This document shows positions 18,052-37,050 of a DNA stretch of 64,000 nt, in pieces. Every line of letters starts with the position of its first letter. The first letter of the stretch is position 1. Made by a program: the position numbers and the translations under genes. Source of the DNA: Indolivaga capnocytophagoides DSM 22835 (GTDB lineage: Bacteria; Bacteroidota; Bacteroidia; Bacteroidales; Dysgonomonadaceae); assembly GCF_000426485.1 (NCBI RefSeq), contig NZ_AUFL01000009.1, positions 124,001-188,000 on the forward strand, written 5' to 3'. The notes beneath the pieces were generated by a model. The model was not told the DNA's origin. It saw only the letters and a program-made list of their open reading frames with translations, and ran no database searches.

Positions 18052-18882
18052 TCACGGAATCATTACTTCCATCGGTGCGCTGTAATTCCATCTTCTGATA
18101 CCACTACCTTTTGGCGTATCGTAATTTATGCGGGCTGCAGCACGCACAAACACCTTACGACCCGAAGGTATAGTTCCGTTCGATTGTATAGTTATCTCGT
18201 CTCCCAGCAAAGAATTGAATGCCGAACCTGTATATTCGATTTTACTTGACCATCTTTCGTCCCTGGCTCTATATCCGACACTTGAAGAATAGCTTATAAA
18301 AAACTGAATATCTGTTATATTTAGGAAACTATCGCTATAATCGCCCATTACCTGAACTTTTTCTTTAAATATCTCCGGAGAAACAGCTCTGGTCACACGC
18401 ACTTTTGCCGTAACCTTCCCATTTGCAACGGTAGGATCTCCCAGTAATTCCACTTTCAAAAATGGATAAACTTCGAATTTCACATTGTTGACTCCGCTTA
18501 TTTTAGTGTCTATCGTTTCATCAGCATAAACTATACCCCGTTCATCTTCTCTGACAAGAGGTATAAACGGTCCGTCAATACGGATATTATAGTCCGCTTT
18601 AAATAACTTGGTATTCTGAAAAGTCCCATCCGACATGCAATAAAAATCAGGATTCGGAGTCACATTTTCGCCCCAACTCGTTTCAGTCAATCTCACACGA
18701 ATGCCTTCACTTCCCTGATCGGTCAGCACCCGTTCGCCAGTAGCTATATCTACCACTTCGCCCTGTAAAGTTTCGCCCGGTTCATCATAGTTATCCATTT
18801 CGAATAAACTACAAGACGTAAACAAAGCGAGTACACATATAAAAATATAAGGTTCTATTTTTTTCATATTCCGTATATTCAT
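18052..18882 (-). CDS. DUF3823 lipoprotein of the PUL 2 susCD operon
   Basis: A 276-residue lipoprotein (LFTSC, Cys24). The opening segment ETLQGEVVDIATGERVLTDQ and the IRVRLTETSWG and DGTFQNTKLFKADYNIRI stretches are typical of DUF3823 proteins, which have two beta-sandwich domains and follow SusD in many Bacteroidetes PULs. They are thought to act as SusE/F-like accessory glycan binders. It starts 45 bases after the SusD stop, with a GTC-TGC-GAC dyad (about 18892-18905) in that gap. A second in-frame ATG at 18867 is an equally possible start. Binding to mannan is inferred from context only. Confidence 0.85.
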   Translation of the reverse strand: MNIRNMKKIEPYIFICVLALFTSCSLFEMDNYDEPGETLQGEVVDIATGERVLTDQGSEGIRVRLTETSWGENVTPNPDFYCMSDGTFQNTKLFKADYNIRIDGPFIPLVREDERGIVYADETIDTKISGVNNVKFEVYPFLKVELLGDPTVANGKVTAKVRVTRAVSPEIFKEKVQVMGDYSDSFLNITDIQFFISYSSSVGYRARDERWSSKIEYTGSAFNSLLGDEITIQSNGTIPSGRKVFVRAAARINYDTPKGSGIRRWNYSAPMEVMIP

Positions 18883-18927
18883 TATTTATAAAAGTCTGCG
18901 ACCTTTATTATTATAGATATAATATCA

Positions 18928-21003: not shown

Positions 21004-21044
21004 ATCTGTATTTTTTAGATTCGTCACTTTTCACTAAGTAACAA

Positions 21045-21126
21045 TAAGTATTTAATGTTGCATTTTAAAGCAATAACTATCTATTGCTGTTATACTTAAA
21101 CAGTCATCAAATAGGTCTGAGACCTT
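21045..21126 (+). repeat. Intercistronic repeat A, inverted copy between susC and susD
   Basis: It contains AGTATTTAATG near its left end, TGTTATACTT in the middle and the palindrome AGGTCTGAGACCT at 21113-21125, which overlaps the susC TAA (21125-21127). Unlike the other copies it points against the direction of transcription. It also contains an internal hairpin AGCAATA/TATTGCT (21069-21075 with 21082-21088). Confidence 0.6.
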
Positions 21127-24100
21127 AAAAAGAAAGGGATAATCCTAGTGTATAAGTTTTATTCAGTGGATATAAACGCCCATTGTCATCATCAGGATGT
21201 TCAGGATCCACAAATTTTACTTGCGTAATAGTAAACAAATTGTAAGCATTGGCAAAAATTCTCAGATTCATTGTCGGCCAGGCTTTCCATTTGGGTAAGG
21301 TATATCCTAGTTCTACACTTTTAAGACGCAGATATGCCGTACTTACTCTATTGAATTCCGAATCGCTGCGTGGATAACGACCTGTATATCCATAATATCC
21401 GCTCACCCACTCGATAGATGGATCATAAGGGTCTGCTGTTGGATCAACCGGATGCCAACGATCCAGATATTGCTCCAATGTACCACCTCCGTTTGTACCC
21501 CATATAGCATACAACGGCTCTTTATATTCCATAGATCCTAAAGCCGATCCCTGAAACAGGGCACTCATATCGAGATTTTTATACTTAACATCAAAACTGA
21601 AACTATAATTCAGCCACGGTGTTTGGTCGAAAGCATAAGGATGGACATCCAATCCATCAATTTGTCCGTCTCCGTTCCAGTCCTGATATTTATAATCTCC
21701 GGGCAATATATCCCTGTCTTTATAACCGGGATAAGACCATATATCCTGCCAGCTTGTATAACGTCCTGCCGATTCGTATCCGAACTGCATACCCTGATAA
21801 CGGTTTGTAAGATTATCATTACGCCATCTGTCATAAGAGTTACCCCATGGGCCTTTTTCCGATGCGGTCATGTATTTCTGACGTGTAATAGTACCAATAG
21901 CCTTTACTTTATAGAACACATCCCCTATCTGATTGCGGTGCGAGAGTTCGAGGTCAATACCGAAGTGACGGTCGCTATCGAGGTTTTCTCTCGGAGCATC
22001 TGCACCCACCACAGTAGGCAGGTCTCCTTTACGACGGGCAAAACGTCCCTCACGGCGGCGGTCGAAATAGTCTACAACAAATCCGAATAAACCGTTCCAG
22101 CCTTCAAAATCGACTCCGACATTGAATGTTCGGGATTCAAACCAAGTAATATTTCTGTTTGGAAGTGCCTTTGTTGCAACTCCATTCACAAACTGATCTC
22201 CGAAAATATAGCCGGGAGCATACTGTGCATAATATCCTTTGTCCCCATTATCTCCGGTTGCAGGATAAGTATAACCGGTTGCCCAGTCGTAATCCAGATC
22301 GCCGTCATCACCCAGTATACCATAACTGGCTCGCACTTTCAACTGATCTACAAAAGAAAATAGAGGAACTGATTTAAAGAATGGCTCTTCCGACAATCTC
22401 CAACCCACAGAGGCAGAAGGGAAAAATCCCCATTGATGACCTTTTGCAAACTTCGAAGATCCATCGTATCTGAATTGAGCTTCTGCAATATAACGGTTAT
22501 CAAATGTATAGTTAACCCTACCGATAAGAGCAGAATTGGCCTGATCATAAAGATCATTATTACCGGTCAACATACCGCCTTTCTGATTTTCATCCACACC
22601 TGCGAACAAGTATTCCATGGCGAATGCCAAATCACGCATAGCGTAGAAATTATCTCCGTCACGCTTCTGAGTTTCCCATCCGACCACACCATTTACAGCA
22701 TGCTTCTTATCGAATGTACGATTATAATTAAGTGTGAACTGTGCTAATTTCTGCTGTTTCGAAAAGTTTTCACGTCTCAATTGATTCGGTGAACTTTCGT
22801 TATACAACTTTTGATCATATAGTCCTGAAACTTTATTGTAAGCATACTGGTAGTATTCTTTACGGAATATCGTATTATCGTCCATTCTGTAATCGTAACT
22901 GAATAGAGCTTTTGCTGACAACCCCTTCAATTCGGGCAATATTGTTTCCAGATCGAAATTCAATGAAGCGGAAGATTGAAAATATTTTTGCTTGTACTTA
23001 CGGTATCCCGATACATCGGATGTCATTTTGGCTACCGTATTTTCTTCCAGATCCAAGCCTTCGTAATTGAGCATTGTATTTTCAGGGTCGGCATAAGCAG
23101 GATTCAATACCCCTTGACGCCAATAGTTTCTGATTATATCCGAAGAACCTGAATAAGGAGTATTACGTTGATCCGCAACTCCACTCAAGCTAAGTTCGAA
23201 AGTCAGACCTCTTGTTATTTCGGTATTTATATTCGATCTAAGATTGAATTTATCGTAATTCAAATCTCCCGATTTAAATAATCCTTCCTGATAGAAGTAG
23301 CCTAATCCCACATAAAACTGAGTTTTTTCACTACCTCCCGTAATACTCACATCATGCTGAGTCTGAGGTGATGTTTCGGCGAATATAAGTTTGTTCCAAT
23401 CCGTAGAACGGCGTGTACCATTACGAAAAGCTTCGAAATCGGCTTCGGTATATATAAGATTTCCGCCATTGATATTATTCATCGACTTCTCATTATAGAT
23501 CGTCATCGTTTCGAAAGCATTCGCCAGTTTAGGCATTTTCGAAGGTTGCTGTATAGTATAAGAGGCGTTATACGAAACCGATGTCTTACCAGCTTTAGAC
23601 CCTTTTTTGGTCGTAACCAGAATAACGCCATTAGCGGCACGCACCCCGTATATTGCAGCAGAAGCATCTTTCAATACAGATATATCTTCGATATCATTGG
23701 CATTCAAACGCTGGAAATCGGCAGCTTCACGAGGGATCCCGTCTATTACAACCAACGGAGACCCTAATCCTCTGATGTCCAAATTATTATTATATGTTCC
23801 GGGTTCGGCACTTTTTTGCCATACACGGACACCTGCAATACGTCCGGTCAACATATTCTGCGGATTCTCATTCTTTGTCTGGAGCATTTCCGAACCCTTA
23901 ATTCCTGCCACAGCTCCTGTAAGAGTCGCTTTCTTTTGTGTACCATATCCCACAACTACCACATCGTCCAATGCAATGCTTTGGTCATCGGTGAGCGATA
24001 CATTAATTTCGGTACGTCCGTTTACCTTTTCTTCTTTAGTACTCAGCCCTAGAAATTTAAACTCAAGGGTCGCATCCTTAGCAGCTTCGATAGTATACTT

Positions 24101-24307
24101 ACCATCAATATCTGTAATTGTTCCATTTGTCGTGTTCTTCACCGCAACGGTCGCTCCGATAACAGGCTCCTGATTATTATCCAGTACTTTACCTGATATT
24201 TTGATATTTTGTGCCAATAACGATAAAGGCATAAAAACAACAAAGAGCATCACTAAAACCCTATAATGCAAGGATTTTATGTTTTTAGCATATTGTGCTT
24301 TTATCAT
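21125..24307 (-). CDS. SusC-like TonB-dependent outer-membrane transporter (PUL 2)
   Basis: A 1060-residue outer-membrane importer. The signal peptide ends near SLLAQ (33), followed directly by the carboxypeptidase-regulatory-like domain (about 34-110), the TonB-box region DVVVVGYGTQKKA (about 112-126), the plug (to about 235, ending NGVILVTTKKG) and a barrel finishing LGLSLSF. There is no STN domain, so it should not signal to an ECF/FecR pair; control more likely comes from the divergent regulator at 34537. It lies 20 bases downstream of the GH76 gene. Its cargo is inferred to be alpha-mannan oligosaccharide. Confidence 0.96.
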   Translation of the reverse strand: MIKAQYAKNIKSLHYRVLVMLFVVFMPLSLLAQNIKISGKVLDNNQEPVIGATVAVKNTTNGTITDIDGKYTIEAAKDATLEFKFLGLSTKEEKVNGRTEINVSLTDDQSIALDDVVVVGYGTQKKATLTGAVAGIKGSEMLQTKNENPQNMLTGRIAGVRVWQKSAEPGTYNNNLDIRGLGSPLVVIDGIPREAADFQRLNANDIEDISVLKDASAAIYGVRAANGVILVTTKKGSKAGKTSVSYNASYTIQQPSKMPKLANAFETMTIYNEKSMNNINGGNLIYTEADFEAFRNGTRRSTDWNKLIFAETSPQTQHDVSITGGSEKTQFYVGLGYFYQEGLFKSGDLNYDKFNLRSNINTEITRGLTFELSLSGVADQRNTPYSGSSDIIRNYWRQGVLNPAYADPENTMLNYEGLDLEENTVAKMTSDVSGYRKYKQKYFQSSASLNFDLETILPELKGLSAKALFSYDYRMDDNTIFRKEYYQYAYNKVSGLYDQKLYNESSPNQLRRENFSKQQKLAQFTLNYNRTFDKKHAVNGVVGWETQKRDGDNFYAMRDLAFAMEYLFAGVDENQKGGMLTGNNDLYDQANSALIGRVNYTFDNRYIAEAQFRYDGSSKFAKGHQWGFFPSASVGWRLSEEPFFKSVPLFSFVDQLKVRASYGILGDDGDLDYDWATGYTYPATGDNGDKGYYAQYAPGYIFGDQFVNGVATKALPNRNITWFESRTFNVGVDFEGWNGLFGFVVDYFDRRREGRFARRKGDLPTVVGADAPRENLDSDRHFGIDLELSHRNQIGDVFYKVKAIGTITRQKYMTASEKGPWGNSYDRWRNDNLTNRYQGMQFGYESAGRYTSWQDIWSYPGYKDRDILPGDYKYQDWNGDGQIDGLDVHPYAFDQTPWLNYSFSFDVKYKNLDMSALFQGSALGSMEYKEPLYAIWGTNGGGTLEQYLDRWHPVDPTADPYDPSIEWVSGYYGYTGRYPRSDSEFNRVSTAYLRLKSVELGYTLPKWKAWPTMNLRIFANAYNLFTITQVKFVDPEHPDDDNGRLYPLNKTYTLGLSLSF

Positions 24308-24326
24308 ACTGCTTATTTATTTAAGG

Positions 24327-25778
24327 TTAGTTTTTCTTTTCCAATTCGTATTTTGCCAGCACCGCATATTCGGCAGCAAAAGCAAACGTAAACATGCCTT
24401 CCATATTGTTCTTTCCCTTCTCACGATTCCATCCGACCAATAAGTTAGGAGGCAGAAATCCCTTATAGAAAAAGTTCTCATACGCATAATCCAGATTCTT
24501 CTGGAAACTTTCTATATTCTTTGCTACATCCGGATGAGAAGGATACAGATCCACATATCCACGCATCAATACTCCGTTAAACCAGTTATTAAATCCTGAA
24601 ATATCGTAAGTATAATGCTCTGCAACAGTAGCTCCGAGCTTAGCAAAATATTTGAAGCTATTGTCCGATAATTGTTTCGCATCATCCAGATATACCTGTT
24701 CCTTGGTCACCCGATACAGATCGGCAGCACCAGAAAGCATAGTTCCGCTATTGTATGAAATAGCCGGCCCTACTTTATCTCTAAGACCTGTGTTCTTGCG
24801 GTATTTTACATTGTCAATTATTTCGTAAGCGACATCACAATTAGGATCACATCCACCCATCATATCATCATATACACCATCCGAACGCATCAGGCTGTTT
24901 TTTTGCCAGTCGTATATCGCACGGGCAAACTTCAGATAATATTCACTCTTTTTCATCGATGCTGTTTTACGGTTTTGGTTCGCATCGATATATAAGTATG
25001 AAATTTCATCATTTTTGCCTTGATACAGTTCGCTTAACCAAACCAATGGACTTACCATAGGCCCGTTACTGCATGAATGTTTGGTTGTATAACCGGGACC
25101 CCATGTAATGCCTCCATTTTCTTTACCATTGTCATCCAAAGTACAATCCCAGCCATCCAATACATACTGAGACAAGTATTCAGCCTTTATCAGATAAGTT
25201 TGATCTGCGGTCAGCTTATAAGCCTCGATAAGTTCACGTATCAACCATTGCTGGTCATCATATACATTGTGAATCCCGTCTACACTCGCCGACCCTTTAT
25301 CTCCTCCCCGATCCACACCATATACAGACCATTCCTTGGTCTGAGTATAAGAAGTCAGAGTGAAGGTTCCCTGATAAAAAGCTGCATTCTCATACAGATC
25401 ATGTAATAACTGAGTATAACGGGCAAAATTCTTATCATATAATTCAGATTTACCGTGTTCTTTATTGGCTTTAAGTCCATGGAGAATAGCATTTACGGCT
25501 TCTATCGAACTTGTATACATCCATACACTACCCTTTTCGGCTGAACGGGTTCCTGTATAAGGATTATAATATCTTGCCATAGCCATACCCGATCCGGTAA
25601 AATGATTCACCACAGCACTGTCAACCATCTGCATAGCCCGAAGCAGATTCTGCTCCACCAGGTCAGAAGAAGTAATAGGCCCACCTCCGTTATCTCCGTT
25701 GTTATTCTCGGGATCATCACTGCAAGCAGCAGTTACAACGAGCAATAAAGAAAAAATAGTCACAAATAATTTTTTCAT
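24327..25778 (-). CDS. GH76 endo-alpha-1,6-mannanase, surface lipoprotein
   Basis: A 483-residue lipoprotein (VVTAAC, Cys19, followed by an acidic and glycine-rich stretch typical of surface export). The (alpha/alpha)6 fold shows the GH76 catalytic pair in HNVYDDQQW (D174, D175), with GDKGSASVDG before it and NGPMVSPLVWLSELY and ISYNSGTMLSGAADLY after it. GH76 enzymes cut alpha-1,6-linked mannan backbones such as those of fungal mannan or mycobacterial lipomannan. The lipobox and its position beside susC suggest surface action producing oligosaccharides for import. GH76 membership is strong; the exact polymer is not shown by the sequence. Confidence 0.9.
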   Translation of the reverse strand: MKKLFVTIFSLLLVVTAACSDDPENNNGDNGGGPITSSDLVEQNLLRAMQMVDSAVVNHFTGSGMAMARYYNPYTGTRSAEKGSVWMYTSSIEAVNAILHGLKANKEHGKSELYDKNFARYTQLLHDLYENAAFYQGTFTLTSYTQTKEWSVYGVDRGGDKGSASVDGIHNVYDDQQWLIRELIEAYKLTADQTYLIKAEYLSQYVLDGWDCTLDDNGKENGGITWGPGYTTKHSCSNGPMVSPLVWLSELYQGKNDEISYLYIDANQNRKTASMKKSEYYLKFARAIYDWQKNSLMRSDGVYDDMMGGCDPNCDVAYEIIDNVKYRKNTGLRDKVGPAISYNSGTMLSGAADLYRVTKEQVYLDDAKQLSDNSFKYFAKLGATVAEHYTYDISGFNNWFNGVLMRGYVDLYPSHPDVAKNIESFQKNLDYAYENFFYKGFLPPNLLVGWNREKGKNNMEGMFTFAFAAEYAVLAKYELEKKN

Positions 25779-25811
25779 CTTTCTTATTTTCTTTTAGCTA
25801 TCCGGCACTTC

Positions 25812-25835
25812 CTCCGTACACATAAGCATACGGAG
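25812..25835. other. Intercistronic hairpin upstream of GH76
   Basis: Inverted repeat CTCCGTA (25812-25818) and TACGGAG (25829-25835) with a 10-base loop, in the 105-base gap between the two-module lipoprotein stop and the GH76 start. There is no T run on either side, so an mRNA-stability or processing hairpin is likelier than a terminator. Confidence 0.45.
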
Positions 25836-25883
25836 AAAAGATATAGCCGAATTCTTTTTATTACTATATAAAGAACTAATACC

Positions 25884-27698
25884 TCAATTCAGAGCGATAT
25901 TATAGAGAACCAGTTTATTCTCATCACCGTTTAATTCGCCGTTGTACACCCCAAGAACCAGAGTTACATCACTTCCGTTAAACTGAGAAAGGTCATAAAC
26001 AAACGAAGCATATTTATCGGGATCTCCGGCTCCACCCTCTCCATGCTTAAATTTCCAGCAACCATCAGCAGCAGCCGATGCTTCTTTTGCTGTATTGGAT
26101 TTAGGAGATAAATGAGTTACCGTTCCATTATTTTCTATCGCAGTCATTTTGAAGAAGGTATAATTACTTCCAAAGTTCCGAGTCTTGAAGGTAAGCTTGT
26201 TCTGTCCTTCTGAGACACTGAATTTCGCATAGAAATAAGATTCCGGAACTTTTGTATCTATCGGTCCGTTACCTGTTGTTTTGATCAGATATCCTTCCGA
26301 AGGGAACACTTCCGGATCCTTCCTTAACGGAACAAATGACCATGTAGCACCGATATGACCGACATCTCTCCAAGCACGGTAAGCGTCAACATAATTATCT
26401 CTATTTCCAGACTTAGGACTGATACCTGTAAAAGATTTCCGAGTATGAGGCATTGTCGAACGCACCATTTCCTGTGTCAATTTCCATCCCGATACAACTT
26501 CTGTTCCGGGTATCCAATTCCAATCGGTTACATTTTCCTGAGCAAAAGATATACGGCGAAGCACTAATTGCTTATAATAATTACCGGTTTCTTTCCGATA
26601 AATCCCCACTGCTACAATCACTTCTTTTCCGATATACTTACTCAAATCGAAATGAAAATCGGTATAGTCGCCCGAACCATAGGTCTTAGTATCCCCAACC
26701 TTCTCTGTCACAGGTTCTGCAGCAGACAGATCAATAACCTGCACCCCAAAATAAGCGAGTGAAGAAGCGTCTGCACTATGCGTACGGACTCTCAATGACA
26801 ATATCTTATTATCAGCGGTGATTGACTTACTGCCATATACATACGAATCGAACACATCCATATCTGCAGGATTTTCCTGTTCTTTTCCTGTATTTCTGAT
26901 TTGTAGTGTAGTACCTTCATTCTGCTCCTGCCATGCTCCCCAGAAGTCAAGCGTACACATATAGTCGCATGCCCAATCCCAATGAGGATAAGCATCGGCA
27001 TTACGTCCGCCACGATATTCACTGAAGAACCATTTATCGGCATTTTGTAAATCCACTGCTGTTTTTCCCCGAAGCAACTCAACTCCGCCCATCTGAACAT
27101 CAAGCACAACCATACCATCAACAAAATCGCTTTTCGCAATCTTCCGGGTTATAGTCAAAAAGCCGGCTTTAGTAAAAGTGACATCATAGTCATTAATACC
27201 CAAACCATCCAGAACATATTTACCATCTGCACCTGTTGTCACAGAATTAGATGTCGACACACTAACGACCACATCAGCCAGAGGAGTACGGTCTTTATCC
27301 GCCTGAGTTATCACCCCTTGAATCTTCACCGATTTCAACAACGACATATTAGCTGTCGCTATCTTATCTTCAGTAAACTTAGCAGGGGTAATAGTGGTAC
27401 TGATCGTTTGATAACCCTCAGCCGAAAATGTCACAGCATGCGAATCAATCGTTACATTATTGAATGTATACTTTCCATCACTGCCGGTAGTCACAGATCC
27501 ATCAGAACCTCCGATGCTAGATATCGTGACAGTCGCTCCGGCAATTGGCTCACCAACGTCATCAGTGACCAAACCCACGACCGTTCCCGTACCTAAAGCA
27601 ACCGATTTATCGTCGTCGCTACACGCACCCAATGCCATAACGAAGGCACATAAGAGTCCTGTAAAGACAAAAGCCTTTAAAAAATTAGTCAGTTTCAT
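25884..27698 (-). CDS. Surface lipoprotein: two carboxypeptidase-regulatory-like domains plus two related C-terminal modules
   Basis: A 604-residue lipoprotein (ALGAC, Cys26, then SDDD). Residues about 36-108 and 121-200 are two Ig-like carboxypeptidase-regulatory domains, both with TTGxDGKY. They form a stalk. The C-terminal part has two modules of about 190 residues (about 205-395 and 405-604). Each ends in the same pattern, FDLSKYIGKEVIVAVGIY with KQLVLRRISF in the first and YDLSQFNGSDVTLVLGVY with NKLVLYNIAL in the second, so they look like an internal duplication. No catalytic motif is visible. Between the GH76 and DUF4965 genes, a surface mannan-binding protein is the natural reading. 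I do not recognise the module family. Confidence 0.75.
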   Translation of the reverse strand: MKLTNFLKAFVFTGLLCAFVMALGACSDDDKSVALGTGTVVGLVTDDVGEPIAGATVTISSIGGSDGSVTTGSDGKYTFNNVTIDSHAVTFSAEGYQTISTTITPAKFTEDKIATANMSLLKSVKIQGVITQADKDRTPLADVVVSVSTSNSVTTGADGKYVLDGLGINDYDVTFTKAGFLTITRKIAKSDFVDGMVVLDVQMGGVELLRGKTAVDLQNADKWFFSEYRGGRNADAYPHWDWACDYMCTLDFWGAWQEQNEGTTLQIRNTGKEQENPADMDVFDSYVYGSKSITADNKILSLRVRTHSADASSLAYFGVQVIDLSAAEPVTEKVGDTKTYGSGDYTDFHFDLSKYIGKEVIVAVGIYRKETGNYYKQLVLRRISFAQENVTDWNWIPGTEVVSGWKLTQEMVRSTMPHTRKSFTGISPKSGNRDNYVDAYRAWRDVGHIGATWSFVPLRKDPEVFPSEGYLIKTTGNGPIDTKVPESYFYAKFSVSEGQNKLTFKTRNFGSNYTFFKMTAIENNGTVTHLSPKSNTAKEASAAADGCWKFKHGEGGAGDPDKYASFVYDLSQFNGSDVTLVLGVYNGELNGDENKLVLYNIALN

Positions 27699-27773
27699 TT
27701 GTTTATTAGATTTATATTGAACTGTGTGTATATGTAGTTAAGGCATCAAGCCTCCGCTTTATAAATCGTCAGG

Positions 27774-30269
27774 TCATTTTTTGTTATATTTATCATCCAA
27801 CATTTTGATAAAATAGCCGCCGACAACAGAACGAGCCTGAAATCCTCTTTGATTAGGAGCATCTGTAAACACCCAATCCGACATAGGTACACGGTCTTTT
27901 GTTTCGTTCATAAATAAATGGATGGGAGCAATGAACTTTTCGAATGTAGCCTTATCATCAGCTAGTGTGGCAGTCCAGATAATCCAGTCTGTTTTTGTAT
28001 ATAACTCACGATTATCCAGAGGAAGACCATATTTGTTTTGTTTGGTTAGATAATATGCAATTTCGGTAGATGCAATCTTCGGATCGAAAATTCCCATTTT
28101 TAGGATCTTATCCCATACAAGGTTATATTTCTGACTCCATGTTCCGGATTTATCAAATGTAAGTTTGTAATGATCGCCGTCATTTGCCATTTTTTCCCAT
28201 TCTCCGGCCATTTGTTTTGCTGCAGTAATGTATTTTTCACCAGTGGCATTATCTCCTAACATTTTAGCCAGTTCACCGTAAGATGCGATTCCAAGAATTG
28301 CTTTCACCGACAAATTGGCATTGTGGGCAAAGTGTCCGGCAAAATCATCTGTACATAATTGGTTCTCGGGATCAAGTCCATTCTCTACCAGGTAATCAGC
28401 CCAAACGGTTAATACTTTCCAGTGTTTTTTCGCATATTCGGCATTACCTTCTACTTCAGCGATTGCCCTTGTCAGGATCAGCATGTTACCCGATTCTTCC
28501 ACAGGCATATCACCACCGTAAGTTTGCCCGTTGGCCAAAGGATATGTACCAACATCGTGTGCTGCGAATGGTTTTGTCCATTTGCCGCTTTCGCTGTAAT
28601 ATAAGATATGGTTCATCAACCCTTTAACCAAGTCTACATTATAAAGAAGGAACATAGGGGCAGAAGGATAGGTTATATCTACCGTACCGATAGACCCGTT
28701 GCTGAAGTTTTCTTTCGATAAGAATAACAGGTCTCCATTAGGAGCTTCAACCAATTTATGAGCTGCTATCGCCTGACGATAAGCCAAGGCGCATAATTCG
28801 GCATAATCTTTTCCGCCCGAAACTGAAGCAGTCTCCATCAACTCTTTATCAAATTTATAAGCTTTATCAATCAGGCTGTCGTATTCTTTATTCGCTTTTA
28901 CAAACTGAGAAACAATTGTCTGGTCATTTTTACGATTCCAGTAAGGGCGTAGGTTCTCATTAAAGTATTGGATAGAGTAAATATCATCGTAACCAAGCAT
29001 TATCTTACCGCTTTCCGACCCTACTTTTCCTAGTTTTCTTACTAGAGCCAAATAGTCGTATACCTTAGTAGATTGGGTTTTCTCTCCAAATTTATTATTC
29101 ACGAATTTATCTCTCAAAGCCGAATTCTCTCCTATATTAACCAATGAGTTCTTCTCGTCTGCAACCATATAAAAATATCCCCAGTCTATTCTAACATCGT
29201 CTCCCGATTTTGCTAATATATTCTGACTTTTTGTTCCCGTTTTCAAGAATACAAGATTATCGGAATTTCCAATTTCACTTTGTGTTTCCTGATGGGGTTT
29301 ATCCACCGCCCACAATGGAGATGCTTCGAAATAAAGTTCGATATCGTGTTTCTTTCCGTCATTCGAAACGATGTCGTATGTGATGTAGTTTACAGGACGC
29401 GAAAGAAGATCTAGATCATCCGTAAATAAAGGAGCAGTAAATGTCAGGCGGAGATCAACATTTCCACAGGCAAATACATAATGAGTCTGTGTTGCCTGCA
29501 CATCAGCCGATTTCTGAACTGCTGTCTTTTCAAAATACTTTTTAGTATCTTTTTCTGTTTGCAGTCCAAAATCAAGCAGCCCGTTTCCTACTCTGTTATG
29601 ACAGAATGCTGCAATCGTAACGGTTTTTCCGGCAGTAAACCCCTTAGTCAACGTTTCAGGCAGCTGAAGTATAGCGTTTTTCTTGCAAGTATTGCCGCTA
29701 TTAATAACCTCCTGTCCATCCACATATATAATTACATCATCATCATGCGAATATTCCAGGAATACATTTTTGCTCGAAAAATCTTTATCCAACTTAATAG
29801 TTCTGCGTACCCAAATAAATTCGGTATCCCAGTTAGTCTTAGCCGTGGGCTCATTTACAGTAGTTCCGAATGCCGCAGCTCCGGTCTGCCATTTTGTATG
29901 ATCAAAATCTGGTTTCATCCAGTTATCGGCAGGTTTCTGAGTTGTATATGCACCCGTCCAGGTTCCTTGCTCACCCGTAACGGCTATCGGCTCATACTGA
30001 ACATCTTCTATACCCATAAAACGATATAGTTCCCCATCGACTTTAGCAACCCCTATCAGTGGAAAATCTTTCCCTGTCCAGTGCTTTACATTACTATCAT
30101 ATAGGTTATCAGTCGTAGACCAAGCACTTGTATAAGGATCTATTGTAATCAGAGGATACGCCGGAGGACGCATTCCGCTCGATACAATATCGTGTTCTAT
30201 TGTTTTATTGGTATTGCATCCAAACAATAGTAAACACCCCGAAAGCATAAATAATAAATGTTTTTTCAT
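27774..30269 (-). CDS. DUF4965/DUF1793 glutaminase-A-like protein with inserted jelly-roll domain
   Basis: An 831-residue lipoprotein (LLFGC, Cys18). The opening RPPAYPLITIDPYTSAWS is typical of the DUF4964/DUF4965 family, often named glutaminase A after fungal GtaA. A galactose-binding-like insert (about 85-245, with FIWVRRTIKLDKDF and YVDGQEVINSG) follows, then a DUF5127-type beta domain (about 260-400) and a C-terminal six-hairpin, (alpha/alpha)-barrel-like domain (DUF1793, about 480-830, with MPVEESGNMLILTRAIAEVE and KYNLVWDKILKM). The barrel resembles those of glycosidases. In an operon with GH125 and GH76, a glycan-directed activity is plausible, but the reaction is unknown. Confidence 0.8.
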   Translation of the reverse strand: MKKHLLFMLSGCLLLFGCNTNKTIEHDIVSSGMRPPAYPLITIDPYTSAWSTTDNLYDSNVKHWTGKDFPLIGVAKVDGELYRFMGIEDVQYEPIAVTGEQGTWTGAYTTQKPADNWMKPDFDHTKWQTGAAAFGTTVNEPTAKTNWDTEFIWVRRTIKLDKDFSSKNVFLEYSHDDDVIIYVDGQEVINSGNTCKKNAILQLPETLTKGFTAGKTVTIAAFCHNRVGNGLLDFGLQTEKDTKKYFEKTAVQKSADVQATQTHYVFACGNVDLRLTFTAPLFTDDLDLLSRPVNYITYDIVSNDGKKHDIELYFEASPLWAVDKPHQETQSEIGNSDNLVFLKTGTKSQNILAKSGDDVRIDWGYFYMVADEKNSLVNIGENSALRDKFVNNKFGEKTQSTKVYDYLALVRKLGKVGSESGKIMLGYDDIYSIQYFNENLRPYWNRKNDQTIVSQFVKANKEYDSLIDKAYKFDKELMETASVSGGKDYAELCALAYRQAIAAHKLVEAPNGDLLFLSKENFSNGSIGTVDITYPSAPMFLLYNVDLVKGLMNHILYYSESGKWTKPFAAHDVGTYPLANGQTYGGDMPVEESGNMLILTRAIAEVEGNAEYAKKHWKVLTVWADYLVENGLDPENQLCTDDFAGHFAHNANLSVKAILGIASYGELAKMLGDNATGEKYITAAKQMAGEWEKMANDGDHYKLTFDKSGTWSQKYNLVWDKILKMGIFDPKIASTEIAYYLTKQNKYGLPLDNRELYTKTDWIIWTATLADDKATFEKFIAPIHLFMNETKDRVPMSDWVFTDAPNQRGFQARSVVGGYFIKMLDDKYNKK

Positions 30270-30288
30270 TTTGTAATAGTTATTTAGG

Positions 30289-31746
30289 TTATTGAATACT
30301 GTTTAAGATATCCAGTTTATTATCATTGACCAGTTTTACAATTAATTCGCCAAATAAAGTGTTCTGCCAGGCAAACCACGCCCGTGTAAAATCGTACTGA
30401 TCATTCACATTAAAAGATTCGTGCATAAATCCGGTTCCGGCATCGGTATTCATCAGAAGTTCTACACACCATTTTATCTCTGCATCATCGGTACTTGTAA
30501 AAGCTTTCATCATTATACTCATAGGCCATGCCATATCATAACCGACATGAGGTCCACCGATACCTTCACCAGCCGTACCTTTAAAAAAGTAAGGATTATC
30601 TTCGCTCCAGACAAAACGGCGTGTATTCTGATAAACAGGGTCATTTACAGCTATATCCCCCAAATATGGCATTGCCAGCAAACTGGGGACATTAGCATCA
30701 TCCATCAACAAGTGATTACCGAAACCATCCACTTCAAAAGCATAGATCGTTCCGTATTTAGGATGCTCATAGGTCGCATGTTCTTTTAAGGCTGATTCTA
30801 CTTCATTTGCAAGATCAGTACATTCCTGAGCTAACTTTGTATCTTTATTTACCTTAGTCAGTATTTCGGCTGCTTTCCTCAACGAACTGACTGCAAAAAA
30901 GTTAGAAGGAACAAGAAATTGCAGGGTAGTAGCATCATCCGAAGGGCGGAACGACGATACTATAAGTCCGACCGGTTTTATGGGAGCACCTTTTCCATCG
31001 TTGCTCAATGTATCCAACTGACGTTCGCTCTTTCTTTGAAATGTATAAGGCCCTACTCCATCTTTACGCTGCTGTTCTTTCAGAGTAGTAATGATGCAAG
31101 TGATTGCCTGTAGCCATTCTTCCTGAAAAACTCCGGAATCACCCGTTACTTTCCAATACTGATATGCCAAACGTATAGGATAACAATGAGAGTCGATTTC
31201 CCATTTGCGCTCATGTACACCGGGCTTCATATCTGTGATATCATCTTTCCAATGACCTACCTCATTTGTATCGGTATAAAAGGCATTCGCATAAGGATCT
31301 AAAATAATACTGTTGAACTGACGAAGAATAGTACCTTCCAACATTTTTTTCAGTTCCTTATCTTTATTCGCCAGATGCACGTAAGGCCATACCTGAGCTC
31401 CCGAATCGCGCAGCCACATAGCATGAATATCACCTGTGTAGACACTTGTATCGGGCTTTCCGTTCTTCATCTCGAAACGGACAGTTGTATCCAGCGTATT
31501 CGGATAACAATTTTCGAACATCCACGCCAATTTCGGATTTTTCAGAAGTTTCTTTATCCGCTGTAATTCATTTTCAATCGCTTTCGATTTAAATAATCTT
31601 TCGGATTCCTGCGGACGCCGACTGATATACTGATCGGCTTTCACTACGGTATTATCCAATGGTAAACTGAAATCAATCGTTTCCCATGCTTTTATCTCCA
31701 TCTGCGAAAGAAACAATGCCGTGCCAAGTATTATTATTTTTTTCAT
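30289..31746 (-). CDS. GH125 exo-alpha-1,6-mannosidase
   Basis: A 485-residue (alpha/alpha)6 inverting enzyme with a signal peptide (MKKIIILGTALFLSQMEIKA). GH125 signatures: YTGDIHAMWLRDSGAQVWPY (about 103-122), ERKWEIDSHCYP (about 179-190), KGTAGEGIGGPHVGYDMAWP (about 395-414) and the near C-terminal GTGFMHESFN. By family knowledge it removes non-reducing terminal alpha-1,6-mannose once side chains are cleared, so it works behind the GH76 endo-enzyme and the GH92s. The start codon is followed by a clear signal sequence and preceded by intercistronic repeat A. Confidence 0.94.
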   Translation of the reverse strand: MKKIIILGTALFLSQMEIKAWETIDFSLPLDNTVVKADQYISRRPQESERLFKSKAIENELQRIKKLLKNPKLAWMFENCYPNTLDTTVRFEMKNGKPDTSVYTGDIHAMWLRDSGAQVWPYVHLANKDKELKKMLEGTILRQFNSIILDPYANAFYTDTNEVGHWKDDITDMKPGVHERKWEIDSHCYPIRLAYQYWKVTGDSGVFQEEWLQAITCIITTLKEQQRKDGVGPYTFQRKSERQLDTLSNDGKGAPIKPVGLIVSSFRPSDDATTLQFLVPSNFFAVSSLRKAAEILTKVNKDTKLAQECTDLANEVESALKEHATYEHPKYGTIYAFEVDGFGNHLLMDDANVPSLLAMPYLGDIAVNDPVYQNTRRFVWSEDNPYFFKGTAGEGIGGPHVGYDMAWPMSIMMKAFTSTDDAEIKWCVELLMNTDAGTGFMHESFNVNDQYDFTRAWFAWQNTLFGELIVKLVNDNKLDILNSIQ

Positions 31747-31779
31747 GGATTTTAAGTATTGGTTAGTTACTTCTTATTC

Positions 31780-31860
31780 AAGGTCACAGACCTGCTTGTT
31801 ACTTTGGATGAATAACAATCTGAGCCTGTTATAACTTAAAATAGATCATTAAAGACCTTC
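31780..31860 (-). repeat. Intercistronic repeat A, copy 3
   Basis: It fills the gap between the GH92 stop and the GH125 start. In gene direction it reads from GTCTTTAATGAT through GTTATAACAGGCTCAGATT and CCAAAGTAACAAG to the palindrome AGGTCTGTGACCT (31781-31793), 34 bases before the GH125 ATG. Confidence 0.75.
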
Positions 31861-34177
31861 ATTTACGTATCTTATTCCAAAGTTTAGGGTTATTTTGTTT
31901 CAATTCAGTAGAGAAAGAATAAGGCAAATCCGCCTCTTTTGTCCCTCTTGTTTTGTTCGGTTTATCAGACATTCTGAAACGGATATCAGCACCATCCATC
32001 AACTGTTTATGTGTCAAGTAATTTTTAGTGTAATCCATCCCATTTACCGACATAGCATCGACATATCTGTTATTCGAACCGTTTCCCTCTGAAGTTATAA
32101 CGACTTGTTTTCCATTCTCAAGGCTGATAGTCGCCTTCTTAAATAACGGAGAGCCTAAGATATACTGATCCGTTCCCGGAGCTACCGTATACATACCCAA
32201 TGCTGAGAACACATACCAAGCCGATGTTTGACCATTATCTTCATCACCGCAATAACCATCGGGAGTCGGAGTATATAATTTACGCATTACCTCACGAGTC
32301 CAGTATTGAGATTTCCATGGTTCACCCGAATAATTATATAAATAGATCATATGCTGTATAGGCTGATTACCATGTGCATAATTACCCATATTCATGATTT
32401 GCATTTCACGGATTTCATGGATAACACCACCGTAATAACTGTCATCGAACAATGGCGGTACATTAAAAACAGAATCCATCATGATATTAAACCCTTCTTT
32501 TCCACCCATCAAATCTATCAGTCCCTGCGGATCATGAAAAACAGACCATGTATAATGCCAGCTGTTTCCTTCAGTAAAGGCATCTCCCCATTTCAAAGGA
32601 TTGAATGGCGATTGAAAAGTTCCATCCTGATTCTTCCCTCTCATTAATTTGTGAGACGGATCGAAAAGATTGCGGTAGTTCATCGCACGCTTTGCGAATA
32701 TTTCTATATCCTTTGCAGGTTTACCTAATGCTAAGCCTAATTTATATATTGTCCAGTCGTCATATGCATATTCCAATGTACGAGCAGCATTTTCGTTTAT
32801 CTTCACATCGTAAGGAACATACCCTAACTTATTGTAATACTCATATCCTAAACGCCCGGTAGACTTTATCTGAGGATGTACACTATTAGCACCGCTTACA
32901 ATAGCAGCCCATAAAGTTTCAATATCATATCCTCTTAACCCTTTCAGGTAAGCATCCGCAACAACCGAGGCCGAATTATTACCAACCATACAATCTCGAT
33001 GACCGGGACTTGCCCATTCCGGTAAAAATCCGCTTTCTTTATAAGTATTAACCAATCCGGCCTGCATTTTTTCGTTCATTGAAGGGTACATCAGATTCAG
33101 GAACGGGAATAAGCAACGGAATGTATCCCAAAAGCCGGTATCTGTAAACATATATCCGGGTAAAACCTGTCCGTTGTAAGGACTGTAATGTACTATCTCT
33201 CCGGCTGCATTATGTTCAAAAAAGCTACGGGGAAACAGGACTGAACGATATAGGCAAGAATAAAATGTGCGGATGTTATCTACGTTCTCATCTTCTATTT
33301 TGATCTTTCCTAATACTTCATTCCATACTTTCCGTCCGTTTGCAGCAACGTCATCAAAGCTTTGTCCCTGTACTTCTTTAAGATTAAGTTCGGCTTGATC
33401 GTAACTGATGAATGACGATGCTACTTTCGCATGTACGATTTCTCCTTTTTCTGTCGAAAAGCCGATAATTCCACCGGCATGATCACTTTGTGATTCGGTT
33501 TTATTCTGGCTGATATTTCCATCCGCAACAGAAGCCGTATAAGTAAACGGTTTATCAAATACTATAACAAAGTAATTTTTGAAATTATCGGGTACACCGC
33601 CACTGTTTTTTGTGGTATAACCAATGATCTTATTTTCTGATGGAACAATCTTTATATATGAACCTTTATCAAAGGCATCTACTATTACATATGAGTTTTC
33701 GCTTTTAGGGAACGTAAAGCGGAATACGGCAGCACGTTCGGTCGGAGTTATTTCGGTCACAACATCATGATCCGCCAAGTACACCTGATAATAATACGGT
33801 TTTACGATTTCAGCTTTATGAGAAAACCAACTGCTTCGCTGGTCCTGATCAAATACAACCTTACCCGTTATCGGCATAATAGCAAATTGACCATAATCGT
33901 TGATCCATGGACTGGGCTGATGGGTTTGTTTAAATCCTCTGATCTTATCGGAATCATAAGTATAAGCCCATCCGTCTCCCATCTTTCCGGTTTGAGGCAT
34001 CCAGAAATTCATCCCCCAAGGCAAAGCGATGGCTGGATAAGTATTTCCTGTCGAAAGCGCATGCTTCGACTGAGTACCCATCAATGGATTTACATAATCA
34101 ACAGGAGGCAGATTAGTCTGAGCATTCAGATAAAAAGTCAGAAATGCCGTGAATAGAAAAATGAATTGTTTCTTCAT
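31859..34177 (-). CDS. GH92 alpha-mannosidase, GNQP variant (PUL 2)
   Basis: A 772-residue secreted GH92 (signal peptide ending YLNAQ, 20). N-terminal domain VDYVNPLMGTQSKHALSTGN; catalytic domain with EGNSWHYTW (E536), HGNQPIQHM (about 602-610) and GDEDNGQTSAWY (D645, D647). The glutamate of the usual HGNEP is glutamine here (Q605). I recall that this exchange accompanies tolerance of phosphate at the +1 sugar in a described mannose-phosphate-active GH92, so the substrate may differ from that of the GNEP enzymes. First gene of PUL 2, divergent from the regulator at 34537. A close paralogue is at 48043-50343. Confidence 0.93.
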   Translation of the reverse strand: MKKQFIFLFTAFLTFYLNAQTNLPPVDYVNPLMGTQSKHALSTGNTYPAIALPWGMNFWMPQTGKMGDGWAYTYDSDKIRGFKQTHQPSPWINDYGQFAIMPITGKVVFDQDQRSSWFSHKAEIVKPYYYQVYLADHDVVTEITPTERAAVFRFTFPKSENSYVIVDAFDKGSYIKIVPSENKIIGYTTKNSGGVPDNFKNYFVIVFDKPFTYTASVADGNISQNKTESQSDHAGGIIGFSTEKGEIVHAKVASSFISYDQAELNLKEVQGQSFDDVAANGRKVWNEVLGKIKIEDENVDNIRTFYSCLYRSVLFPRSFFEHNAAGEIVHYSPYNGQVLPGYMFTDTGFWDTFRCLFPFLNLMYPSMNEKMQAGLVNTYKESGFLPEWASPGHRDCMVGNNSASVVADAYLKGLRGYDIETLWAAIVSGANSVHPQIKSTGRLGYEYYNKLGYVPYDVKINENAARTLEYAYDDWTIYKLGLALGKPAKDIEIFAKRAMNYRNLFDPSHKLMRGKNQDGTFQSPFNPLKWGDAFTEGNSWHYTWSVFHDPQGLIDLMGGKEGFNIMMDSVFNVPPLFDDSYYGGVIHEIREMQIMNMGNYAHGNQPIQHMIYLYNYSGEPWKSQYWTREVMRKLYTPTPDGYCGDEDNGQTSAWYVFSALGMYTVAPGTDQYILGSPLFKKATISLENGKQVVITSEGNGSNNRYVDAMSVNGMDYTKNYLTHKQLMDGADIRFRMSDKPNKTRGTKEADLPYSFSTELKQNNPKLWNKIRK

Positions 34178-34336: not shown

Positions 34337-34344
34337 CAAAAATA
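34337..34344 (-). promoter_or_regulatory. Candidate -7 box for the PUL 2 operon
   Basis: CAAAAATA on the plus strand is TATTTTTG on the minus strand, matching the Bacteroidetes -7 consensus TAnnTTTG. No TTTG is seen at the -33 distance; instead the heptamer array covers that region, as expected for an activator-dependent promoter. This would give a leader of about 150 bases before the GH92 ATG. Confidence 0.4.
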
Positions 34345-34353
34345 GTTCCATAT

Positions 34354-34395
34354 GATTAATCGAAGGGTTAATATAGGGGTTAATGACCAGTTAAT
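34354..34395 (-). promoter_or_regulatory. Phased four-copy heptamer array, candidate operator
   Basis: GATTAAT (34354), GGTTAAT (34366), GGTTAAT (34378) and AGTTAAT (34389) repeat every 12, 12 and 11 bases, about one helical turn. It lies between the PUL 2 promoter candidate and the regulator gene. Direct repeats at this spacing suit winged-helix activators of the OmpR/SARP type, which the neighbouring gene appears to encode. Confidence 0.55.
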
Positions 34396-34503
34396 ATTTA
34401 ATCTTAAACCGAATTATTTCATTAACCTTGACACTTTTTCACATTTATAAAGATTACAATAAGCTTATCGAGTTCTTTATTGATTTTTCTTTTTATAATT
34501 TAT

Positions 34504-34511
34504 TATATTTG
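34504..34511 (+). promoter_or_regulatory. Candidate -7 box for the regulator gene
   Basis: TATATTTG is a full match to TAnnTTTG and lies 25 bases before the ATG at 34537. The -33 region has only a weak TTTATTG. Confidence 0.5.
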
Positions 34512-34536: not shown

Positions 34537-37050
34537 ATGAGAAGACAATATATATTATTCCTTCTAGTTTTTTTAGCAATCACACACTACAATGCTAGAT
34601 CTCAAGGATTAAAATTTAAAGGAAACAGCTATCTTATTCAAGAGCGGACATCTTACAATGTTTTTAATAATTCGTCTCCTGTTTTTAAAGATTTCCTGAC
34701 CATAGATTTCGATATTTTATGTGATACACTACCGCAAGTGGGTTATTTATTCAGGATCAAAACACAGAATCCTGATCTTACATTCAATCTGGCTTATGAT
34801 TCACAGGGAAATAATATAGCTTACCATCTCAACCTGGAAGGAAAAAGCAGATTGATAACTATGTCGATCCCAAAGAAAGATTACACTTTCAGCCAATGGT
34901 CTAAATTACAACTGCACCTCGATCTGATTAACGGTCTGATCAGTTTTTCGATAGGAGACCATTCCCAAACTGAAAAATTAAACTTTCCGAAATACCTCGA
35001 AACTAAAGTTCTGTTCGGGTGCAGTGACTATTTTATAGACATACCTTCATTCTCTATCAGAAACCTGAAAATATCGGGTAAAAACGTGGCTTTCGAATAT
35101 CCTCTGAGCGAACATACCGGATCGGTTGTGTACCCATCTAAAGGAGATATTAACGGACACATCAATAATCCGATATGGCTGATAAATGATGCCTACTATT
35201 GGAAATACACCGGACAGCAAACGTCCAAAAAGGTTGCCGGATTTAATTTCAACCAAGATAAACAGGAAATATATTACTTCAATCAGGATTCGCTAATCCT
35301 GTATAATATGATAAATGGAAAAATCAGTACGATAAAATACAAAAACGAATGTCCTATTGATTTTAGGCTTGGAGATAATTTTCTGAATCCGTCGAATAAT
35401 AGTATGATTGTTTACGAAACTTACAAAACCCTTAGTAAGGATGTGATGATGGCCGAATATAATTTCGACAACAAAACATGGTCTGTTTTAAGTAAAGATA
35501 AATTGCCCACCGAAAGACATCATCACGGACGTTTCTTCGATCAGAAAAACAGCAGGTTCATTATTTTTGGCGGCTTCGGAAATCTTTTATATACAAATGA
35601 CTTCTATAGTTTCGATCTGAACACCAAAACATGGAGCAAGCTCAATTTCAAAGGAGATATCATACATCCCCGCTACTTCTTATCGATGGGCTACCTCGAA
35701 AAAACAAACAGTCTGTACATTTTCGGAGGAATGGGCAATGAGTCTGGAGAATACAATGTAGGGCGCAAATATTTTTACGATCTGTATAAGGTCGATCTCA
35801 ATAATTATACAATTAAGAAGTTATGGGAAATAGACTGGAAGAAAGAGGATATGGTTCCCATAAAATCAATGATTATCAATGAAGAGAAACAGACATTTAT
35901 TACATTCTGTTATCCCGAACATTATTCCAATACCTTTCTGAAACTTTATGAATTTTCTTTGGAAAACGGACATTACAGTAAATTGGGAGATTCTATCCCA
36001 ATCCGTTCAGAAAAGATAGGAACTAACGCCCAACTGTTTCTTGATAAAAAATTCAGCAAACTTTATGCTGTGGTTCAAGAGTTCGACAATGACGATATAG
36101 GCTCTAAGTTTAAGTTATATACATTATCCTATCCGCCCGTGTCATTCGATTCGCTTCAGATGCCCCCCCCTTCAGGTAAATCCGGCAGGACCCTTATTTA
36201 CATCATCCCTGTTTTTATTCTGATCGTAATATTAACTTCTATAATCTACTGGAGATTCCGGAGAAGACAAGATTCAAGTGATTTACATGCATTGAGTACA
36301 TCAGACGAAAATCAGAGTTTACCGGAACAGGAAATAAAGAAAACGCCTAATACAATATTTCTATTCGGTAAATTTTCCGTTATCAATAGATCAGGTAAAG
36401 AAATAGAATACATGCTCAGCGCAAGACTAAAGCATGCCTTCTTACTGATTTTACAGCATAGTGCCAATGGTGGAATAACATCTAAAGACCTGACTGATAC
36501 GCTATGGGACGACAGAAACAACAAGAAAGCAAAGAACATCAGAGGTGTAACAATTAACGGTCTTCGAAAAGTTCTGGAAGAATTGGACGGTATTAGCCTG
36601 ATTTATGAAAAATCGACTTACCGAATTGAGATCAGCAGCAAGTGCTATTGTGATTATTTATCTTTCTTAACGATCATCAATGCAAAACAGAACCAAGATA
36701 ATTCAGTTGAGTTTATCCGCATTCTATCCAATGGCGAATTCCTGAAAAACAACGACGAACCTCTGTTCGACACGTGGAAAGCCCTCGTTGAAGATAAACT
36801 GGAATCGGAACTAAAACAGTCGCTCAGAAATTGTTATGAGAGAAAAAATTACCAGACAGTATCCGTTTTATCTAAAATAATATTGGATATATCCCCTTTA
36901 AGTGATTTTGCTTTATCATATTACATCAGGTCTTCGATCAAATTAAACAAAGAAAATCTGGCAGAAGAAAGATATCAGAAATTTACCAATACATACAAGC
37001 AAATGATGGGCGAAGACTACAAAACGCCATACGAAAAATTCATACGGTAG
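34537..37050 (+). CDS. Membrane-spanning one-component regulator: LamG-like and Kelch sensor, TM, winged helix, BTAD-like tail
   Basis: 837 residues from the ATG at 34537, which opens a signal peptide (MRRQYILFLLVFLAITHYNA); the longer frame uses a TTG inside the promoter region. Residues about 25-225 look like a jelly roll. Residues about 230-520 are a Kelch-type propeller (FIIFGGFGN, LYIFGGMGN). A single membrane span lies at about 552-574 (IYIIPVFILIVILTSIIYW). Residues about 605-710 form a winged-helix domain (LFGKFSVINRSGKEI, LTDTLWDDRNNKKAKNIRG, VTINGLRKVLEEL), followed by a helical BTAD-like end (about 715-837). This implies sensing glycan in the periplasm and binding DNA while still in the membrane. 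It is divergent from PUL 2, its likely target. A run of eight C (36163-36170) lies just before the membrane span. Confidence 0.75.
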   Translation: MRRQYILFLLVFLAITHYNARSQGLKFKGNSYLIQERTSYNVFNNSSPVFKDFLTIDFDILCDTLPQVGYLFRIKTQNPDLTFNLAYDSQGNNIAYHLNLEGKSRLITMSIPKKDYTFSQWSKLQLHLDLINGLISFSIGDHSQTEKLNFPKYLETKVLFGCSDYFIDIPSFSIRNLKISGKNVAFEYPLSEHTGSVVYPSKGDINGHINNPIWLINDAYYWKYTGQQTSKKVAGFNFNQDKQEIYYFNQDSLILYNMINGKISTIKYKNECPIDFRLGDNFLNPSNNSMIVYETYKTLSKDVMMAEYNFDNKTWSVLSKDKLPTERHHHGRFFDQKNSRFIIFGGFGNLLYTNDFYSFDLNTKTWSKLNFKGDIIHPRYFLSMGYLEKTNSLYIFGGMGNESGEYNVGRKYFYDLYKVDLNNYTIKKLWEIDWKKEDMVPIKSMIINEEKQTFITFCYPEHYSNTFLKLYEFSLENGHYSKLGDSIPIRSEKIGTNAQLFLDKKFSKLYAVVQEFDNDDIGSKFKLYTLSYPPVSFDSLQMPPPSGKSGRTLIYIIPVFILIVILTSIIYWRFRRRQDSSDLHALSTSDENQSLPEQEIKKTPNTIFLFGKFSVINRSGKEIEYMLSARLKHAFLLILQHSANGGITSKDLTDTLWDDRNNKKAKNIRGVTINGLRKVLEELDGISLIYEKSTYRIEISSKCYCDYLSFLTIINAKQNQDNSVEFIRILSNGEFLKNNDEPLFDTWKALVEDKLESELKQSLRNCYERKNYQTVSVLSKIILDISPLSDFALSYYIRSSIKLNKENLAEERYQKFTNTYKQMMGEDYKTPYEKFIR

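Follow-up and report, generated by a model that had tools for sequence, protein, structure and literature searches.

The stretch of DNA analysed here, called the window, comprises 64,000 nucleotides (contig NZ_AUFL01000009.1, positions 124,001-188,000) of the 4.38 Mb genome of Indolivaga capnocytophagoides DSM 22835. It contains a gene for an 837-residue protein that we think is a one-component, membrane-tethered activator of the SARP type, which would control polysaccharide utilization loci (PULs) without a phosphorelay, and we give this reading a probability of about 80%. A first-pass annotation, made from the sequence alone, had suggested that the protein acts on the divergent operon through positions 34337-34430. 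The predicted fold of its output part, the conserved neighbourhood of its relatives and a row of direct repeats at 34354-34394 all argue for such an action.

Output domain and membrane topology

The output part of the protein is, according to the structural models, a SARP fold, that is a winged helix followed by a BTAD domain in one unit. When this unit was modelled alone (pLDDT 93), the top rows of the PDB fold search were AfsR in a transcription initiation complex (8k60 with Z 15.8 and 8hvr with Z 15.7; 224 of 232 residues aligned, root mean square deviation 5.2-5.3), and the second best were EmbR (2fez with Z 14.2 and 2ff4 with Z 14.1; 227 residues aligned). The rows after these go from Z 10.1 down and are mostly TPR proteins. 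The likeness was revealed by the fold search alone, and a PDB sequence profile search with the same unit, at E up to 10, returned PhoB-type winged helices, TPR and unrelated proteins but not AfsR or EmbR. Neither the Pfam BTAD model nor the Pfam winged helix matches the protein; a scan of its whole length with Pfam and NCBIfam gave Kelch, with SARP (BagI/FevR, 8e-4) and VanR-O as weak matches below the cut-offs, and single scans of 31 family members found BTAD in two and Trans_reg_C in two, with weak E-values. Since Kelch is all that Pfam recognizes here and the output domain escapes it, an annotation based on Pfam would overlook such proteins as regulators. A profile of the output unit forms a bridge to BTAD proteins: it matches further open reading frames (ORFs) in 25 of 296 genomes of the phylum at 1e-5, and 7 of the 8 weaker hits tested carry Pfam BTAD (all but L104; L numbers are our locus labels). 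The cytoplasmic winged helix and BTAD-like region of the first-pass annotation thus hold despite the silence of Pfam, and the helix-turn-helix, whose absence from the C-terminal part that annotation had named as fatal to its view, was found there by fold prediction. A 993-aa ORF (G000:C1:615076-615249, L229) is the sole place in the genome matched by Pfam BTAD, at E up to 0.01.

The ORF of the regulator is confirmed and runs from an ATG at 34537 to a stop at 37050. An alternative TTG start at 34480 would give 19 extra residues, and coincides with the predicted -33 TTG of the regulator's own promoter. The full-length model, built from 31 family members, has a mean pLDDT of 86.6 and a pTM of 0.61. 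Its one membrane helix agrees with the first-pass annotation, and a hydrophobic stretch precedes the output domain in 72 of the 73 long regulators of the family. The N terminus is hydrophobic in 69 of these 73, and in 71 the side after the membrane helix is more positive than the side before it, by a crude count in which the window protein ties 2 to 2. The predicted layout, in which a membrane helix joins a sensor outside the cytoplasm to a DNA-binding domain, is that of a one-component transmembrane regulator. No kinase (HisKA, HATPase), receiver or AraC-type helix-turn-helix is among the eight Pfam families of the window protein, nor among the 25 of 32 families listed for the 31 members, and a phosphorelay would therefore not be needed.

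Candidate operator and promoters

The tandem repeats overlie the -33 region of the predicted operon promoter, with a period of 11-12 bp and a distance of 9 bp to a TAnnTTTG box. They were spotted by eye, and the repeat-family search did not report them. A strict pattern of three GTTAA copies at 11-12 bp matches the genome once, at 34367-34394, whereas the reversed pattern, taken as control, has no match. We scored sites as the best three-copy GGTTAA array with a period of 11-12 bp (at most 18 letters), and within the window only this row reaches at least 15.

All of the 23 scored gaps of close relatives, the window included, have an array score of 14-18, compared with 18 of 309 control gaps at 14 or more. 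At least 16 is reached by 19 of the 23, by 2 of the 309 controls and by none of 460 mononucleotide shuffles. The orientation of the array relative to the neighbouring operon is the same in all 23. The GGTTAA unit was taken from the window, L059 and L023, with the regions of L060, L061, L048 and L062 also in view, and a looser pattern search over those loci preceded the choice of gaps; when the window, L059, L060, L061 and L023 are set aside, 18 of 18 gaps still score at least 14 and 15 of 18 at least 16. In reading these figures it should be kept in mind that the control gaps have a mean length of 248 bp, less than the 421 and 376 bp of the target sets, and that the loci depend on each other; L193 and L194, for instance, are identical in all 120 aligned columns, and L180 and L183 are nearly alike. 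L184 was left out since none of the gaps next to its regulator has a PUL gene on the other side, and the neighbour across the scored gap of L196 is an unassigned 578-aa ORF. L197 and L198 lie outside the close-relative set; the array of L197 scores 17.

When the gaps are aligned on the repeats, the information per ten columns is 11.2-13.4 bits over the repeats, 8.7 over the -7 box and 7.5 over a distal stretch with an inverted copy of the motif, and 2.2-5.8 elsewhere. A TAnnTTTG box with at most one mismatch stands at a fixed distance in 22 of the 23 gaps, taken as the best over 15 allowed offsets; the gap from box to first repeat is 9-10 bp in most, and one repeat further in L059, L179 and L187. 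None of the 23 operon promoters has a TTG at -33, where the second repeat sits, and for want of it they look activator-dependent. The inverted copy in the window may serve the regulator's own promoter. Letters similar to it recur in many orthologous gaps.

Positions of the regulator, its candidate sites and its predicted target operon in the window
Feature	Position	Strand	Basis
Regulator gene, 837 aa: signal peptide, beta domain, Kelch propeller, membrane helix, winged helix, BTAD	34537..37050	+	sequence, Pfam, models, fold searches
Predicted signal peptide, about residues 1-23	34537..34605	+	hydrophobic N terminus in sequence; found in 69 of 73 long regulators
N-terminal all-beta domain, residues 25-214, possibly LamG/ConA-like	34609..35178	+	model; weak neurexin LamG profile match; hhalign negative
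Kelch propeller, residues 216-536, predicted periplasmic	35182..36144	+	Pfam, fold searches
Membrane helix: residues 551-582 in the model, with a hydrophobic run from about 552 and WRFRRR after it	36187..36282	+	sequence, model, family comparison
Winged helix DNA-binding domain, residues 606-700 (recognition-helix region 662-680), predicted	36352..36636	+	models, fold search
Helical BTAD-like domain, residues 706-837	36652..37047	+	C-terminal model, fold search, profile bridge
Predicted regulator promoter: TTG (34480), N21, TATATTTG (34504-34511)	34480..34511	+	promoter-box search
Inverted copy GGTTAATG, about 25 bp beyond the tandem repeats	34420..34427	-	alignment of relatives' gaps
Repeat 4, AGTTAA	34389..34394	+	strict-pattern genome search, window array scan
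Repeat 3, GGTTAA	34378..34383	+	gap scoring, alignment
Repeat 2, GGTTAA, which occupies -33 in the operon promoter	34366..34371	+	gap scoring, alignment, promoter boxes
Repeat 1, GATTAA (TTAATC on the operon strand)	34354..34359	+	gap scoring, alignment
Predicted -7 box TATTTTTG of the operon promoter (TAnnTTTG)	34337..34344	-	consensus in PMC7366714
Predicted target operon: GH92, GH125, DUF4964/DUF5127/GtaA protein, CarboxypepD_reg protein, GH76, SusC, SusD, DUF3823	18052..34177	-	ORFs and domain scans

Gene neighbourhood

The regulator gene is divergent from the operon that is its predicted target. The GH76, GH125 and GH92 genes named in the first-pass annotation are all there, and the operon holds further PUL genes, among them SusC and SusD. 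Relatives with 37-45% identity were found at 23 loci (L023, L059-L061, L178-L196), and 20 of these hold a nearby protein that is 56-80% identical, by blastp, to one from the window operon, the exceptions being L181, L184 and L196. As PUL markers we used hidden Markov models for SusC, SusD and GH92 in flanks of about 20 kb, shorter at contig ends, with genes called by a greedy ORF script and not by a gene finder. A marker lies near the regulator in 21 of the 22 loci of the first searches (same class, order or family, plus L023), L072 being without one, and in 37 of the 40 family loci (not in L198, L207 and L217). Of 40 windows placed at random on these contigs, 12 have one (Fisher 3e-7 for the first set of loci and 4e-9 for the second). 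The close relatives stand mostly at PULs of the alpha-mannan type, and the PULs next to more distant relatives have another or an unknown substrate.

The DUF4964/DUF5127/GtaA six-hairpin protein of the operon (27774-30269), which carries the Pfam name glutaminase A, stands within an operon of alpha-mannan type, and is also found beside regulator relatives in L059, L179, L187 and L189. The CarboxypepD_reg protein (604 aa, 25884-27698) has relatives with 42-65% identity that adjoin the regulator or lie within its operon in many orthologous loci.

Sensor domains

A Kelch sensor had been proposed for the periplasmic part, and it is borne out by PF24681 at 1.1e-22 and other Pfam models for the Kelch repeats, together with a propeller model whose fold search (residues about 216-536) gives Z 23 to the Kelch domains of LZTR1 and KLHDC3. 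The Kelch model NANM, N-acetylneuraminate epimerase, is touched by 11 of 31 members (best 1e-4), and YjhT, a sugar epimerase, is among the fold rows of the propeller (2uvk, Z 19.3); together these make a sugar-binding propeller possible. The LamG-like half of the proposed sensor fares less well. Residues 25-214 are all-beta in the full-length model and their profile matches a neurexin LamG at E 2e-4 over some 42 positions, whereas hhalign against the Pfam-confirmed LamG sensors of L078 and L079 gives a probability of 1%. Pfam Laminin_G_2 is touched by 1 of 31 members, at 0.02, and in whole-model fold searches the rows were filled by Kelch. The domain is possibly LamG/ConA-like.

The family and its sites

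The protein has no second match in its own genome at E up to 10. With the own genome included in each count, relatives were found in 38 of 101 genomes of the family at 1e-40 (up to seven matches per genome), 16 of 295 of the order at 1e-15, 4 of 395 of the class at 1e-15 and 17 of 395 of the phylum at 1e-5, some matches being Kelch-only or partial. One named relative is from a metagenome-assembled genome of Saccharicrinis (Marinilabiliales), at 43% identity.

The array is found outside the close relatives as well. Among deduplicated gaps a score of at least 14 is reached by 20 of 22 in clade I, by 23 of 51 in other members and by 19 of 634 controls (Fisher 9e-18 for others versus controls), and 5 of the 8 wider-family gaps from other classes reach it. 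All five controls with at least 15 lie in the flanks of regulators (L063, L070, L078, L189 and L208), even though roughly one control in two (331 of 654 before deduplication) was drawn from a random window, so some of the five may be true sites. A letter-free test for three repeats anchored on the -7 box (at least 17 of 21) was passed by 31 of 78 gaps and 4 of 654 controls, and three TTAA anchored in the same way were found in 46 of the 76 gaps beside long regulators of the whole family and in 18 of 654 controls. In five loci of other classes (L050, L051, L054, L056 and L057), GGGTTAA-type repeats stand in the adjoining gap with no SusC, SusD or GH92 near.

The two letters before TTAA differ by sub-clade, and appear to vary with the residue preceding a nearly invariant asparagine of the recognition region: GG goes with lysine in the close relatives and TA with threonine in the group of L206, L208 and L210. 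The mean G count before TTAA is 4.3 of 6 for lysine (29 gaps) and 1.3 for other residues (17 gaps), with p 1e-5 in a comparison that was formed after looking and ignores kinship, and L214-L216 contradict the trend. This exploratory rule, with its exceptions, is a lead and not a proof.

Discussion

We hypothesize that a signal is sensed in the periplasm, where the N-terminal beta domain and the propeller would both be exposed, and that it most likely consists of oligosaccharides freed from alpha-mannan by the neighbouring enzymes. The signal would cross the one membrane helix to the cytoplasmic winged helix-BTAD unit and, in the simplest mechanism, alter the arrangement of the membrane-held units so that two to four of them line up side by side on the direct repeats, over -33 and just upstream of the -7 box. 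Aligned in this way they could recruit RNA polymerase as AfsR does, judging from the SARP structure. The regulator itself would be made from an ordinary promoter, with predicted TTG and TAnnTTTG boxes.

ToxR and CadC have their DNA-binding part at the N terminus, and the regulator described here, which shares one-component control from the membrane with the ToxR-like proteins, differs from them in having it at the C terminus. The main text of a survey of transmembrane transcription regulators (PMC10269533) contains neither BTAD nor SARP. The SARP targets described in PMC10936776 are direct repeats with a period of 11 or 22 bp near the -10 box, and AfsR is there described as activating through sigma region 4 and polymerase. 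Our predicted sites are alike in their period of about one helix turn, in their place over -33/-35 and in the 9-10 bp to the -7/-10 box, but have three or more repeats per site as opposed to two in the afs box (PMC10936776). The unit resembles those of AfsR and EmbR in domain order and fold; the AfsR unit is N-terminal with NOD and TPR behind it, and that of EmbR is followed by an FHA domain, as PMC10936776 describes them, whereas here the unit stands at the C terminus, preceded by the periplasmic Kelch sensor and the membrane helix. Judged by its domains and by the layout of its sites, the protein is a SARP whose topology is new. In the open-licence PMC literature, judged by titles, term counts and abstract openings, we found no description of the Kelch-membrane helix-SARP combination.

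Control of PULs in Bacteroides is described in PMC3878776 as exerted by SusR-like regulators, hybrid two-component systems (HTCS) and extracytoplasmic function (ECF)/anti-sigma systems. Our protein has the build of the SusR-like regulators of that account, in which one membrane protein combines sensing in the periplasm with DNA binding in the cytoplasm, and like them it is often encoded next to a PUL; it is set apart by its site, since theirs are predicted as a direct repeat of two conserved parts with a long spacer (PMC3878776) and ours have the short period. An HTCS also has a periplasmic propeller sensor and a DNA-binding part in one chain beside a PUL, but is set apart by its kinase, receiver and AraC-type domains, none of which was among the families listed for our protein or the 31 members. 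The -7/-33 consensus boxes of Bacteroidota promoters were taken from PMC7366714, according to which the -33 motif is not seen in Flavobacterium johnsoniae.

Several observations weigh against the activator reading or narrow it. The lack of TTG at -33 in the operon promoters partly follows from the repeat filling that place, and the period is usually 12 and then 11, not strictly 11. Among the 51 wider-family gaps, 28 stay below 14 in the expected orientation and 9 reach 14 in the opposite one (11 of 634 controls), and the anchored TTAA pattern is missing in 30 of 76 gaps beside long regulators. A looser pattern had 42 matches in the 101 family genomes compared with 60 for its reversed control, so that by number it is background and only its position is special, with 14 of the 42 matches (13 places) lying within about 0.7 kb of a family regulator gene. 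A mannan ligand is a guess, since the best PDB rows for the propeller are for the most part Kelch domains that bind proteins. No PUL marker was found in any of the nine loci of other classes or the four loci with other sensors, from which it follows that the wider family does not consist solely of PUL regulators. The first-pass annotation's regulator class for mannan use is thus too narrow, with most close relatives at PULs of the alpha-mannan type but distant members at other PULs and other-class members beside genes without markers.

The sensor leaves most room for another explanation. It is a real possibility, though we find it the less probable one, that the propeller binds a partner protein such as SusC/SusD, a PUL enzyme or an envelope protein and not a sugar, in which case the output on DNA would be unchanged. 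The protein-binding Kelch domains of KLHDC3 and LZTR1 speak for this, as do other-class members beside genes without PUL markers, such as L050 with an OPT transporter and a subtilase; the close relatives, however, mostly track one operon of alpha-mannan type, and the NANM matches and the YjhT row make a sugar-binding propeller possible. Rather improbable is a cleavage near the membrane, triggered by the signal, that frees the SARP unit to activate. A linker of 22 low-confidence residues (578-599) joins the membrane helix to the winged helix in the full-length model, and a gene for a BSP-type peptidase (37125-37883) adjoins the regulator, but blastp found no relative of this peptidase among the called neighbours of regulator relatives, other proteases not having been looked for.

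We consider it unlikely that the repeats belong to another regulator of the operon while the SARP-like protein controls something else. An HTCS gene does lie in the window (53019-57056), and direct-repeat sites have been described for HTCS and SusR-like regulators too (PMC3878776), but those have the long spacer, and the HTCS gene adjoins a different SusC/SusD/GH92 cluster. The repeats moreover recur beside SARP-like genes even where no SusC, SusD or GH92 is near, as in the five other-class loci, and the letters before TTAA seem to vary with the recognition region. Least probable of all is repression. A membrane-held protein on the core promoter could block polymerase, yet the promoters look activator-dependent, with the reservation already made about -33, and the SARPs described in PMC10936776 are activators.

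Membrane-tethered SARPs are quite probably an overlooked further class of PUL regulators in Bacteroidota, with up to seven copies per genome and a readable code, namely a TTAA core every 11-12 bp over -33, with the two letters ahead of the core tending to change with the residue before the near-invariant asparagine. Since many of its relatives adjoin other clusters of sugar-harvesting genes, the protein seems to represent a kind of diet-sensing switch that has been overlooked. If so, it would be a further control system beside the SusR-like, HTCS and ECF/anti-sigma ones, built on a unit known from Streptomyces, and would explain how PULs lying beside such genes are switched on. SARP-type activation would then also work with the unusual sigma factor and the -7/-33 promoters of Bacteroidota, and the regulons of these proteins could be predicted from sequence. 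The exact sequence of a candidate operator is now available for testing.

Other sensors and neighbours

The SARP output unit is also paired with other sensors (L078, L079, L025 and L039). The regulators L078:9092-11635 and L079:8638-11232 combine the same output with a membrane-adjacent sensor that Pfam recognizes as Laminin_G_3, and give no Kelch match. Locus L078 also contains a fusion of a NapC/NirT cytochrome with an FGE-sulfatase-like part (13847-15388), with three GTTAA repeats upstream. In L025 (G699) and L039 (G843), with flanks L081 and L080, the regulators have a short sensor (479-500 aa in all) without a clear Pfam sensor family, and adjoin similar rows of about six ORFs of 370-510 aa, with no SusC, SusD or GH92. 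Pfam scans of a few neighbours of the other-class regulators gave an OPT transporter, a subtilase, a GLUG protein and an AAA_14 ATPase.

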